17,624 nucleotides of DNA from Halobacteriales archaeon (lineage in GTDB: Archaea; Thermoplasmatota; SW-10-69-26; JACQPN01; JAIVGT01). Shown piece by piece: positions 3,639 to 14,735 of this stretch (positions within the stretch are counted from its first letter, which is position 1; the number at the start of each line of letters is the position of its first letter). The notes beneath the pieces are model-generated. The model saw only the letters and a program-made list of their open reading frames with translations, did not search any database and was not told the origin of the DNA. Location of the stretch: NCBI GenBank assembly GCA_020201485.1, contig JAIVGT010000197.1, forward strand, positions 1 through 17,624, in the 5' to 3' direction. A program made the translations under genes and the position numbers.

Positions 3639-4188
3639 GCCGCACCCCCTCGACGATGCGGCGCACGACCTCGTCCGGCGGGCTTTGCTCCGTGCTCAGC
3701 GTGAGGTCGTAGTGCGCCTCGTCCTGCAGGTCCACGCCGTAGATGCTCATGTAGCGCAGCCGCTCGCTGCCCTCGCGCTGCTCGTTCGCGTGCAGCGCGT
3801 CCTCGACCCGCAGCCCTTCGCGCTGCGCGATGCGCTCGGCGCGCACGACGGGCGGGCAGTCGAGGCGCACCTTGAACGCGGGCACGCCGTGCGACTTGCA
3901 CACCCAGGCGGTGAGCCGGCCCTCGAGCACGACGCGCCCTCGCCGCGCCTCGTCCGCGACGCGGTCGTCGAGCATGCGGTCGATCTTCCCGTCGCGCTCG
4001 GCGAGCGCGCTGAACTGGTCCAGGCTCAGGCCGCGCTCCTGCGCCATGGCCCGGAACAGGCCGCCGGCGCTGACGAACCGGAAGCCCAGCTCCCGGGCCA
4101 CAAGCTGCGCGGCCGTGGTCTTGCCCGTGCCGGGCAGCCCCGCGATGGCGACAGCTTGCACCGTCGGCTCGTGGGGCGCGCGCGTCAT
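3628..4188 (-). CDS. cmk: Cytidylate kinase, archaeal type
   Basis: This enzyme phosphorylates CMP (and dCMP) to the diphosphate with ATP in the cytoplasm. The P-loop GLPGTGKTT is at 17-25, followed by the typical GGLFRAMAQERGLSLDQFSALAERDGKIDRMLDDR segment of archaeal Cmk. Next come GRVVLEGRLTAWV and the lid-region arginines (VRAERIAQREG). The length (186 aa) fits the short archaeal family. The ATG at 4188 overlaps the stop of the DUF106 gene as ATGA. The neighbourhood (adk, DUF106, cmk, cbf5) is the standard archaeal arrangement downstream of secY. The gene for L14e, which in some archaea lies between cmk and cbf5, is absent. Confidence 0.93.
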   Translation of the reverse strand: MTRAPHEPTVQAVAIAGLPGTGKTTAAQLVARELGFRFVSAGGLFRAMAQERGLSLDQFSALAERDGKIDRMLDDRVADEARRGRVVLEGRLTAWVCKSHGVPAFKVRLDCPPVVRAERIAQREGLRVEDALHANEQREGSERLRYMSIYGVDLQDEAHYDLTLSTEQSPPDEVVRRIVEGVRHAR

Positions 4189-6198: not shown

Positions 6199-7818
6199 CT
6201 ACTCGCCGAAGAAGCCGCGCAGGATGGGATGCATCTCCATCACCTGCTCCTTGGCGATCTGCTCGTACAGGCGCTGCAGGATGCCCACGGTGAGCAGCAC
6301 GCCCGTGCCGGACGCGTTGCCGACCGTGCCGATCATGTCCGCGCTGAACGCCAGCGCCCCGACCGCAGCCCCACCGATGACCGTCACCACCGGGATGTAG
6401 CGCTCCAGGATCTTCTCCACGATGCGCGGGTCGCGCCGGAAGCCGGGGATCTGCATGCCGCTGCTCTGGATCTGCTTGGCCACGGCGTCCGGGCCCATGT
6501 TCGTCGTCTCGATCCAGAACTTGGCGAAGATGATGCTGCCGCCGATCATCGCCCCGCCGTAGCAGGCGATGCGCACCACGACCTGCCACGGCTCGCGGTA
6601 GGTGAACACGCGCGGCCCGTAGCGGTCCGGGTTCAGGAAGGGCAGGAGCCAGTCCTGCACGCCGTTGCTGAACGGCTGGAAGTAGTAGGCGAAGCCGGTG
6701 ATGGCCTGCGTCCTCCCGCCGCCCGGCAGGTACGTGCCCACCCACCCCTGGAAGCTCGGCGCGTTGTGCACGAGCCAGTTGTAGCCGAACAACGGCAGGT
6801 CGCGCAACGGCCCCTGGTAGAGGAGGAGCGAGATGAGGTTCACGTTCGCCAGCAGCGCCGCCATGAGGATGACCGGGATGTTGCTGCTGTACAGGAGGCG
6901 GATGGGGTACCGGCCGCGCGCGCCGCGCACCTTGCCGTGGGCCAGCGGCAGCTCGACGCGCGAGCTCTCGGCGTAGACCACGATGAGGAAGATGGCGAGC
7001 GTGCCGAGGAAGGCCACGAGCGCGTTCGTGCTCTCCATGAAGATGGTCTCGAAGCCGCCGCCGTGCACGAGCTGCGACGTGTCGTATGCGCTCAGCAGGT
7101 ACAGCGTGCGCGGGAACGTGCCGGGCGGGATGTTGGCCACGGTGCCGTTCGCCGTCGTGCAATCGGCCACGATGCTGTAGGCCTGGCCAGCGCAGGGCGG
7201 GACCCAGTTGAACGTGCCGATGAACAGCGTCTGGCTCACGCCGGCGGCGATGAACAGCGAGATGCCGCTCCCCATGCCCCACTTGCTCACGACCTCGTCG
7301 AGCAGGAACACGATGTAGGAGCCGGCGGCGAGCTGGACGATGATGAGCGCCTGGGCCATGCTGTGCCCGCCGACCTTGGCGTCCAGCGAAGGGGCGGGTT
7401 GCAGGAAGCCGAACACCTGGGGCACGGCCTCGACGAAGATCATGAGGATGACCAGGACCTTCTGCGTGCCCTGGTAGATGCCCTTGTCCTCGGGCTTCGT
7501 CAGGTCGAGCTTGATGATCTTCGCGCCCGTGAACAGCTGCATGATGATGCTGCCCGTGACGATGGGCCCGATGCCCAGGTGCACGAGCGAGCCGTTCTGC
7601 CCGGCGAGGATGGCGCGGAACTGGGCGAAGACATCGACGTTGCCCGAGCTCAGGCCGTAGATGAACACGTTCGCCATGAAGAAGTAGGCGATGAGCGAGA
7701 CGAGCGTCCACAGCAGCTTGCTCTTGAAGTGGACGTGGCCCTCCGGCTTCGTGACCGCGGGCATCCGCTTGATGAGCGGCTCCAGCTTGTAGAGGAGGCT
7801 CTTCTGCTCGTCAGCCAT
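6199..7818 (-). CDS. secY: Preprotein translocase subunit SecY (Sec61 alpha)
   Basis: This is the channel subunit of the SecYEG/beta translocon, which secretes proteins and inserts membrane proteins. The N-terminus (LEPLIKRMPAVTKP) is the usual archaeal amphipathic helix, followed by TM1 at about 35-55 and the plug-region segment. LGIGPIVTGSIIMQLFTGAKII (TM2) is the SecY signature. The protein ends EQVMEMHPILRGFFGE. The length (539 aa) is longer than the about 440-490 of many archaea. Extra sequence lies in external loops, for example the Cys-containing loop around PPCAGQAYSIVADCTTANG. The ATG at 7818 has AGGTG 4 nt upstream, with 75 nt of non-coding sequence between it and rpl15. The stop is 18 nt before the lipoprotein start. 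Confidence 0.96.
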   Translation of the reverse strand: MADEQKSLLYKLEPLIKRMPAVTKPEGHVHFKSKLLWTLVSLIAYFFMANVFIYGLSSGNVDVFAQFRAILAGQNGSLVHLGIGPIVTGSIIMQLFTGAKIIKLDLTKPEDKGIYQGTQKVLVILMIFVEAVPQVFGFLQPAPSLDAKVGGHSMAQALIIVQLAAGSYIVFLLDEVVSKWGMGSGISLFIAAGVSQTLFIGTFNWVPPCAGQAYSIVADCTTANGTVANIPPGTFPRTLYLLSAYDTSQLVHGGGFETIFMESTNALVAFLGTLAIFLIVVYAESSRVELPLAHGKVRGARGRYPIRLLYSSNIPVILMAALLANVNLISLLLYQGPLRDLPLFGYNWLVHNAPSFQGWVGTYLPGGGRTQAITGFAYYFQPFSNGVQDWLLPFLNPDRYGPRVFTYREPWQVVVRIACYGGAMIGGSIIFAKFWIETTNMGPDAVAKQIQSSGMQIPGFRRDPRIVEKILERYIPVVTVIGGAAVGALAFSADMIGTVGNASGTGVLLTVGILQRLYEQIAKEQVMEMHPILRGFFGE

Positions 7819-12524: not shown

Positions 12525-12707
12525 TCAGGAGTACTTCTTGAACCCGAGCTGGGGGGCGATCTCGCGGAAGCACTGCCGGCACAGCCACAGCCGGTACTGC
12601 CGGATGAGGCCGCTCTGCCGGGCGCAGCGCACGCATTGCCTCGCGCCCCGGCCGAACACCATGTTCGGGGGCAGGCTCTTGTCGATGGGTCCAGCCTGGA
12701 GCACCAT
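12525..12707 (-). CDS. rps14: 30S ribosomal protein S14 (uS14), zinc-binding
   Basis: This is a short 60-aa archaeal S14 with two zinc-binding CxxC pairs, C25-V-R-C28 and C43-R-Q-C46. The surrounding pattern is [43 protein letters not shown]. It lies in the head of the 30S subunit. The ATG at 12707 shares one base with the L5 stop (TAATG) and has GGAGGTGGTGG upstream. M16 (MVFGRGAR) would give the common shorter form, but the overlap favours the longer start. Confidence 0.95.
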
Positions 12708-13261
12708 TACTCCACCACCTCCACGCCGAACGTCTGCGCGACGAAGCTCTGCGCTTCCTCGCGCGGCAGGCGGTGCGACTTGCCGACGCGGCCCTTGAGC
12801 AGGCGGCGCTGCTTCACGCGCGAGCCGGGCCGGGTGATGACGGCGGTGATGTTCATGCCGAAGATGCCGATGTCCGGGTCGTACTTCATCCCGGCGAAGT
12901 CCGTGTAGTCGGGCACGCCGAAGTTGAGGTTCCCCTCGTCGTCGAAGTGGTACCAGGGGATCTTGCCGTTGCGCACGTCGAACGCCTTCTTCAGGAACGC
13001 GACCGCGTCCTCGCCGCGCATCGTGACCTTGCAGCCGATGGGGCCGCCCTTGCGCAGCGCCCACTCCCGGTTCGGGGCCTTGGCCAGGGTTCGGACGGGC
13101 TTCTTGCCCGTGACCATGCCCAGGACCTTCTCCGCCTTGATGAGCTTCTCGCCGCCCTCCCCGACGCCGATGTTGACCACGACCTTCTCCACGCGGGGCT
13201 GGCGCATGGCGTTCGGGTAGCTGTAGGCCTGCACCGCCGCCGGGCTGTTCGCGCTCACCAT
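12707..13261 (-). CDS. rpl5: 50S ribosomal protein L5 (uL5)
   Basis: This protein binds 5S rRNA and forms the central protuberance bridge to the 30S head. Archaeal markers are [73 protein letters not shown] and the [33 protein letters not shown] motif. The length is 184 aa. The ATG at 13261 lies one base after the S4e stop (TGAGATG). The stop overlaps the S14 start by one base. Confidence 0.97.
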
Positions 13262-13262
13262 C

Positions 13263-13811
13263 TCAGCTCACCGCCTTGGGGTGGGCAGCCGTGATGCGCT
13301 CCTCGGGGAGCCGGATCTCCGCCTTGTCCTTGCCCACGACGAACACGTAGGGCTTGATGGTGCTGAACTCCAGGTCGCCGTCCTTGAGGTGCACGAGGTT
13401 GGCGCGCGGGTCGCGCGTGACCTCGATGTTCGTGATGCGGGCGTTGCCGCCGACGTGCGCGCCGCCGGTGATGAAGGCGTGCGCCCCCTCGGCCAAGGGC
13501 AGGTGCTCCATGACCTTCTGCTCCGGGAGCTTGATCTTCAGCACGTCGCCCGTCTTGTACGGGGCCTCCTTGACGACGATGTTGCGTCCGTCGTGGAGGT
13601 TGAGCTGGGTCGCGCCCCCGGCGATGGTCGTCTTGTCCTCGATGCGGCACAGCTTCCAGCTGGCGTTGGCCTTGTTCATCTCCGTCAGGGCCAGCCGGCC
13701 GCGCTCGTCCAGCAGGACGCGGTAGCTCGCGTCGAGCTTGGGGATGGTGATGACGTCCATCAGGCCCACGCCGCGCTTCGGGTCGGTGCAGGGCTTCTGG
13801 TCGACGAGCAC
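13263..13811 (-). CDS. rps4e: 30S ribosomal protein S4e (eS4), N-terminus missing
   Basis: The C-terminal part of S4e is clear: VLVDQKPCTDPKRGVGLMDVI (S4 RNA-binding domain), YRVLLDERGRLAL, GGATQLNLHDGRNIVVKE, and the KOW part AFITGGAHVGGNARITNIEV. Similarity in this frame continues upstream as HLKLCDTAREARIILSQRD to about 13868, but there is no ATG, GTG or TTG there. The first available start is the GTG at 13811, inside the S4 domain. The normal first about 40-45 residues (the conserved RLxAPKSW/RK region) are absent. Upstream of 13869 the DNA instead encodes the tail of L24 in another frame. The gene is therefore broken by a deletion, produced by frameshifting from L24 (a -1 shift would join the frames), or mis-assembled. 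The normal family length is about 235-245 aa; 182 codons remain. Confidence 0.85.
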   Translation of the reverse strand: MLVDQKPCTDPKRGVGLMDVITIPKLDASYRVLLDERGRLALTEMNKANASWKLCRIEDKTTIAGGATQLNLHDGRNIVVKEAPYKTGDVLKIKLPEQKVMEHLPLAEGAHAFITGGAHVGGNARITNIEVTRDPRANLVHLKDGDLEFSTIKPYVFVVGKDKAEIRLPEERITAAHPKAVS

Positions 13812-14326
13812 GTCGCGCTGGCTGAGGATGATGCGCGCCTCGCGGGCCGTGTCGCACAGCTTGAGGTGCGCTCCGCCGGCGTGGCCTGGGCCGGCTTGGG
13901 CTTCTCCTCGGCGGCCTTGGCCTTCTTCGGCTGGGCGCCGCGCTGCTTGTCCTCGGGGCTGACGTCGGCCTCGCTCGCGCCCAGCTTCTCCCGGCGCAGC
14001 TTGTCCGTCAGGTCGAGGCGGGTGAGGACGACGTCGCTCGGGTGCAGGGGCTTGGGCTTCTCCGTGCCATCCGCCTTGGCCACGCTCACGCCCTCGACGG
14101 TGATGGCGTAGCGCGTCCGGTCCACGCCCAGCACCTTGCCCGTCGTGCCCGCGCCCTTGCCGCGCACGACGCGCACCGTGTCGTTGACGCGCACCGGGAA
14201 GCTGCGCTTCCCGTACTTCACGAGGAGCTCCTCGCTGAGGTGCGCGTGCATCTGCTTGCCCCGCTGGTGGAGGGGGGCGTTGTGCAGCGCCTTCCGCTGC
14301 TTCCGGGGTTGGATACTGCTCACCAT
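13760..14326 (-). CDS. rpl24: 50S ribosomal protein L24 (uL24), reads through into rps4e
   Basis: L24 is an early 23S rRNA binder with a KOW domain. Residues 1-115 are a standard archaeal L24: QPRKQRKALHNAPLHQRGKQM, HLSEELLVKYGKRSFPVRVNDTVRVVRGKGAG, KADGTEKPKPLHPSDVVLTRLDL. A Lys/Ala/Pro/Glu-rich tail follows to about residue 152 (codon at 13871-13873). After that the frame continues for 36 residues (RTSSCATRPARRASSS...) that are only the shifted reading of S4e, so the true C-terminus and stop seem to have been lost. The ATG at 14326 is chosen over the GTG at 14335 because GAGGTG lies 6 nt upstream and includes that GTG. The gene follows L14 closely. Confidence 0.88.
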   Translation of the reverse strand: MVSSIQPRKQRKALHNAPLHQRGKQMHAHLSEELLVKYGKRSFPVRVNDTVRVVRGKGAGTTGKVLGVDRTRYAITVEGVSVAKADGTEKPKPLHPSDVVLTRLDLTDKLRREKLGASEADVSPEDKQRGAQPKKAKAAEEKPKPAQATPAERTSSCATRPARRASSSASATCSSTRSPAPTRSAAWA

Positions 14327-14336
14327 GTCTCGCACC

Positions 14337-14735
14337 TCACACGATCATGCTCGCCGTGGCCGCGATGCGCGGCCAGCGCTCGGCCGCTTCCCGCGCGACC
14401 GGGCCCTTGATGTCCGTGCCCTTCGTGTCGCCGTTGTCGGCGACGAGCACGCACGCGTTGTCCTCGAACTGCACCATGGTCCCGTCCGGCCGGCGGTAGG
14501 GCCGGCGCGTGCGAACCACGACCGCCATCACGACCTGGCGGCGCATCTCCGGCGTGCCCTTCTTCACCGAGCAGATGAACAGGTCGCCGATGGCCGCGGC
14601 CGGGTACCGGCGCTTGCGGTTGCCGACGCGGGGCACGGCCACGACCTGCACGACCTTGGCGCCGCTGTTGTCGGCGACGTCCAGGCGCGCGCCCGTGGGC
14701 AGGCCGCGCGTGATATTCGCTGCCAGGGCCTTCAT
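14337..14735 (-). CDS. rpl14: 50S ribosomal protein L14 (uL14)
   Basis: This protein lies at the subunit interface and contacts 16S rRNA. Markers are GLPTGARLDVADNSGAKVVQVVAV, RYPAAAIGDLFICSVKKGTPEMRRQVVMAVVVRTRRPYRRPDGTMVQFEDNACVL, and the ending GTDIKGPVAREAAERWPRIAATASMIV. The length of 132 aa is the archaeal norm. The ATG at 14735 overlaps the S17 stop as ATGA. Its TGA is part of the Shine-Dalgarno of L24. Confidence 0.97.
   Translation of the reverse strand: MKALAANITRGLPTGARLDVADNSGAKVVQVVAVPRVGNRKRRYPAAAIGDLFICSVKKGTPEMRRQVVMAVVVRTRRPYRRPDGTMVQFEDNACVLVADNGDTKGTDIKGPVAREAAERWPRIAATASMIV

Follow-up and report, generated by a model that had tools for sequence, protein, structure and literature searches.

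The window, that is, the whole 17,624-nucleotide stretch of DNA that was analysed, is contig C48 of a draft genome whose 404 contigs total 2,243,238 bases (completeness 76.76%, contamination 0.67%), and the nearest named relatives of its proteins belong to Candidatus Thermoplasmatota. Among its genes is secY (6199-7818), with a product of 539 aa; the SecY of G001 (L046:7424-9475), a draft genome and the nearest relative among the genomes compared, has 683 aa, of which about 137, between aligned residues 142 and 280, are without a counterpart in the window protein. The minus strand carries an archaeal ribosomal gene cluster with the order L14-L24-S4e-L5, and the features around the junction of rpl24 and rps4e were as follows:

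14337..14735, minus strand: rpl14, the upstream neighbour of rpl24, with its Pfam domain present
13868..14326, minus strand: rpl24 (L24p), residues 1-153, with the C-terminal tail and stop codon missing (alignment, Pfam)
13760..13867, minus strand: non-homologous run-on of the L24 frame, overlapping the S4e coding sequence and closed by a chance TGA at 13762-13760
13867..13868, minus strand: breakpoint, to within a few bases, where the L24 arginine codon CGC is joined to ACCTCAAGCTG of S4e '(Y)LKL'
13263..13867, minus strand: rps4e (S4e), from which the initial 47 residues are absent (RS4NT plus the margin of the S4 domain), with its stop at 13263
12707..13261, minus strand: rpl5, the downstream neighbour of rps4e, with both Pfam domains present

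On our reading of the genes in the ribosomal cluster, no other was broken.

The L24 gene began with ATG at 14326 and was homologous, in frame, up to ...ATPAER153. Pfam placed the product in PF16906 (Ribosomal_L26/L24P, 4.7e-27), with a KOW match (2.2e-5). The last homologous codon was that of Arg153 (CGC, 13870-13868), and no native stop followed; instead, the frame ran on for 35 non-homologous codons, for which the L24 relatives aligned had no counterpart. The C-terminal tail seen in kin, which comprises 26 residues in the relative P0122, was absent, a loss that the preliminary description of the locus had not included. Homology to S4e began at approximately 13867, in the -1 frame relative to L24, i.e., shifted back by a single base (codons GCG-CAC-CTC-AAG-CTG, counted from 13871), reaching as far as 13263. 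Therefore, the earlier placement of the end of L24 near 13871 without a stop, and of an abrupt onset of S4e similarity near 13868 in a different frame, was accurate.

All S4e residues preceding 'LKLCDT' ('LxLCD' in kin) were lacking, amounting to 47 residues relative to kin with an MSKH or VSKH start, and to 43 from the called start of P0002, the closest S4e relative. The preliminary description was thus correct that the N-terminus and start codon were absent, while its estimate of 40-45 residues was slightly low. The S4 and S4e domains were present both in P0002 and in the window protein (in the latter, PF00900 at 3.6e-28 and PF01479 at 8.3e-6); RS4NT (PF08071) was found by Pfam in P0002 and not in the window S4e. 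In the S4e frame, the first ATG, GTG or TTG after the break was GTG 13811, and the 300 nt that precede 13871 contained no such codon. The position of the break was also recovered without homology, by an HMM of codon frame that was self-trained on long open reading frames and set the switch at 13870. When segments with homology to G001 served for training instead, the switch was set at 13867. This agreement between the ends of homology and the frame HMM indicates that the junction is due neither to chance nor to misreading. The region from 13750 to 14000 held one 9-nt inverted pair and two imperfect direct repeats, none of which spanned the break tellingly; at the break itself, no repeat offered an obvious cause for a misjoin.

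S4e was single in the 2.24 Mb assembly. A further complete rps4e, for which a search had been proposed when the locus was first described, was not found in these 2.24 Mb of a genome that is 76.76% complete; nor was a stray RS4NT, the best match scoring 13.5 bits against a cut-off of 27. In a phylum sample of 243 genomes, S4e was present in 229 and RS4NT in 205 (E <= 0.001). Each of the 229 gave one S4e match; second copies are not usual. A recount from both tables left 24 of the 229 genomes with S4e and no RS4NT match. Twenty of these belonged to one family (f27), whose S4e open frames of 237-325 aa, unaligned, look complete with a diverged N-terminus. In two others (G120 and G196) S4e was cut by the contig end, and in another (G159) the S4e match was itself weak (2.5e-4) and was not re-found with P0002 as the query. 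Setting G159 and family f27 aside, the window genome was the only one of 243 to have an internal S4e without RS4NT.

Among the best 120 of 1,542 S4e matches in the databases, eight lacked RS4NT, one of them being the entry for the window itself. Of the other seven, one is named as partial (P0116), three begin with Val, being either cut or started at GTG, and the remaining three (P0106, P0109 and P0113) are short, begin with Met, and may be cut or mis-called. Where eS4 chains from solved structures were listed, several of which we take to be from archaeal ribosomes, the match began at P0002 residue 1-7, except for 3kbg_A, which began at residue 28. Among the matches listed in a literature search, no title concerned the rpl24-rps4e locus.

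The junction was compared with related genomes, as the preliminary description had recommended. A DNA search of 41 genomes produced matches in 23, including the window's own, and returned the loci of 19 relatives; in all 19, L24 ended in a stop codon and S4e retained its N-terminus. The closest S4e relative, P0002 (243 aa, 92% identical), and the closest L24 relative, P0122 (approximately 91% identical in the alignment), are both metagenomic, each listed on a 3,274-bp contig, and their genes are complete and separate. The relatives found did not include a sequence of the same species showing the intact form. The S4e start was sought in eight kin loci and its motif found in seven; in six of these S4e occupied the -1 frame of L24, with junctions of GTGA (G001 and G002), CTGA (G005), ATGA (G030 and G011) and TAATG (G003). 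G034, the seventh, differed: its L24 frame closed directly before the S4e start and both genes shared one frame.

These loci permit the missing length to be estimated at 78 - 1 + 139 = 216 nt, a multiple of three. The exact length is inferred: it takes the tail from P0122 (26 aa), allows 47 aa for the start of S4e and supposes that the genes overlap in the GTGA manner; with the tail lengths of other kin (24-40 aa) it becomes 210-258 nt. The apparent -1 frameshift therefore arises because S4e lies natively in the -1 frame and has lost about 216 nt, and since the relation is native in kin, no frameshift signal is needed to account for it. Otherwise, the gene pair in the window resembles the rpl24-rps4e pair of other Thermoplasmatota in gene order (L14-L24-S4e-L5), strand and frame relation, but differs in lacking these ~216 nt, which include the L24 tail, the L24 stop, the S4e start and RS4NT.

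Same-strand frame switches without an intervening stop were scanned in 61 of the 404 contigs (334,781 bases); 46 of the 60 sampled contigs other than the window were shorter than 5 kb. With segments of at least 300 nt, there were 6 such switches, compared with 19 in 1,081,045 bases of G001 (1.79 and 1.76 per 100 kb, respectively), and with 150-nt segments there were 10 against 28 (2.99 and 2.59 per 100 kb). Given the equal rate in G001, the scan does not mark the assembly as unusually poor, and an argument that it was rich in errors, based on 8 of 104 switches being stopless, was dropped in favour of the cases examined with Pfam. Some of the stopless switches look like neighbouring or overlapping genes. 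A homology scan of the 61 contigs against G001 genes was noisy, with over-long and antisense G001 ORFs, and its counts were not used.

Seven stopless switches besides that of rpl24 and rps4e were identified in the first scan, and in three of them, one on C54 and two on C16, Pfam supported a break within one protein. The first concerned a subtilase on C54 (L101, ~3704-3714), where Pfam positions 1-85 were matched in one frame up to nt 3714 and positions 149-288 in another from nt 3710, with no stop nearby; positions 86-148, or about 190 nt, were missing. This lesion is of the same kind as the break between rpl24 and rps4e. On C16 (L064, ~574 and 1394), FG-GAP and UnbV domains were distributed over three frames, which we read as one protein, the first FG-GAP match being just below the cut-off. 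The switches on C2 and C32 read as in-gene breaks and had no Pfam match, while those on C17 and C58 were doubtful, the latter not being among the stopless switches when the scan was rerun.

Comparable breaks were sought among the 19 switches of G001 found with 300-nt segments, where pieces of nine (L114, L118, L123, L146, L147, L148, L160, L167 and L171), in some of their frames, were scanned with Pfam. Among these nine, a single domain clearly extended over two frames in L171 alone; L118 and L148 resemble adjacent genes. L171 (G001:C63, ~1179-1227) contains rpoB', which changes frame inside Rpb2 domain 6, positions 2-193 being matched in one frame and 182-373 in the next. The break coincides with an 18-nt perfect inverted repeat, with arms from L171:1179 and 1210, and looks like a fold-back assembly artefact; an error is far more likely than a broken core gene at rpoB'. 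Drafts of this kind contain lesions in the form of stopless breaks. The window break is like the local deletions and frame breaks of draft metagenomes in that a conserved protein, as with the C54 subtilase, suffers an internal loss and a change of frame; it differs in spanning two genes rather than one, and so mimics a fusion.

Three options had been put forward for the junction: a real deletion, a programmed -1 frameshift producing an L24-S4e fusion, and an assembly or consensus error. Sequence has indeed been lost relative to kin, and the last of these options is the best supported, because the draft is in 404 contigs, the C54 subtilase and the G001 rpoB' gene provide examples of such breaks, and close kin are intact. 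The missing segment, its absence from the 2.24 Mb assembly, the intact kin and the native frame relation were observed directly; the loss itself would have occurred in the assembly rather than in the cell. Very probably, then, an artefactual deletion of about 216 nt, by assembly or consensus, has removed the 3' end of rpl24 together with the 5' end of rps4e. A core gene disabled at a single-copy locus, when kin of 92% identity are intact, would have a low prior as a natural state. Against an artefact, stopless switches occur no more often here than in G001, the rest of the cluster is, on our reading, unbroken, no intact sequence of the species was found, the break shows no evident repeat, and three short S4e entries begin with Met.

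A real deletion in the strain, or in a minority of the population, by which the L24 tail and S4e N-terminus were lost, is unlikely. Either the cell would live with a truncated S4e, or an intact copy would reside in the unrecovered quarter of the genome. The otherwise unbroken cluster is consistent with such a deletion, as is the failure to find an intact copy in the assembly, while the ~23% of the genome outside the assembly leaves room for a second copy. However, the single S4e match in each of 229 genomes makes second copies unusual, and RS4NT is kept by close kin. Moreover, the first S4e start would then be GTG 13811, at the cost of part of the S4 domain also, and the solved eS4 chains listed match from P0002 residue 1-7 (3kbg_A from 28). 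That the deletion is both real and fixed, such that a free-living archaeon makes S4e without RS4NT through L24-S4e read-through or an internal start, is very unlikely.

A naturally short S4e, translated from an internal or non-canonical start (CTG 13859 or GTG 13811) while L24 ends in its run-on, might be suggested by a database gene call (P0001, 198 aa), which begins at the residue of CTG 13859, and by the short Met-start entries P0106, P0109 and P0113. Yet the nearest kin start 43-47 residues upstream, the 35-residue run-on lacks a counterpart in the aligned L24 relatives, and the three short entries are possibly cut or mis-called; this reading is highly improbable.

An L24-S4e fusion with a shortened S4e, made through a programmed -1 frameshift, is scarcely credible: although no stop separates the two overlapping frames, which stand in the -1 relation, that relation is native in six of seven kin loci, the L24 frame holds a single XXXYYYZ heptamer (a C-run at 14277 that is out of phase and far upstream), and close relatives have separate, complete genes with no fused or frameshifted arrangement. 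Folded with DNA parameters and not as mRNA, the stretch 13920-13820 looked unremarkable (z 0.65). The examples of programmed ribosomal frameshifts named in one source include dnaX, prfB and transposases (PMC3711429). The junction in the window is like the frameshifts described there in that its frames also overlap without a stop, but differs in having no slippery heptamer nearby, in being unseen in relatives and in having sequence missing. A joined-pair search did produce, among the best 120 of 1,819 matches, four proteins in which an L24 domain and an S4e domain occur together (P0241, P0242, P0254 and P0260). These all keep RS4NT and, despite being 92-100% identical to the first, are mutually inconsistent in their internal losses. 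They were considered as natural precedents for fusion and rejected, and are more likely products of gene prediction (bogus introns) or of assembly.

Under the preferred explanation of an artefactual deletion, the organism most likely has an ordinary gene pair, in which L24 with an acidic tail would be followed by a stop overlapping or abutting the S4e start, and then by a full-length S4e. The draft would have connected S4e, at codon 47/48, directly to the L24 tail, perhaps through a wrong overlap, a read merge or the closure of a gap in GC-rich sequence. The case carries a caution, as, when sequence is deleted across two overlapping genes, the resulting stopless -1 join imitates a programmed frameshift or a fusion; comparison with kin shows the -1 relation to be native, and an assembly error suffices. 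A real join would call into question whether archaeal ribosomes require the N-terminal domain of S4e, and were the deletion real and fixed, the rRNA-binding RS4NT N-terminus, otherwise widely kept, would be dispensable.
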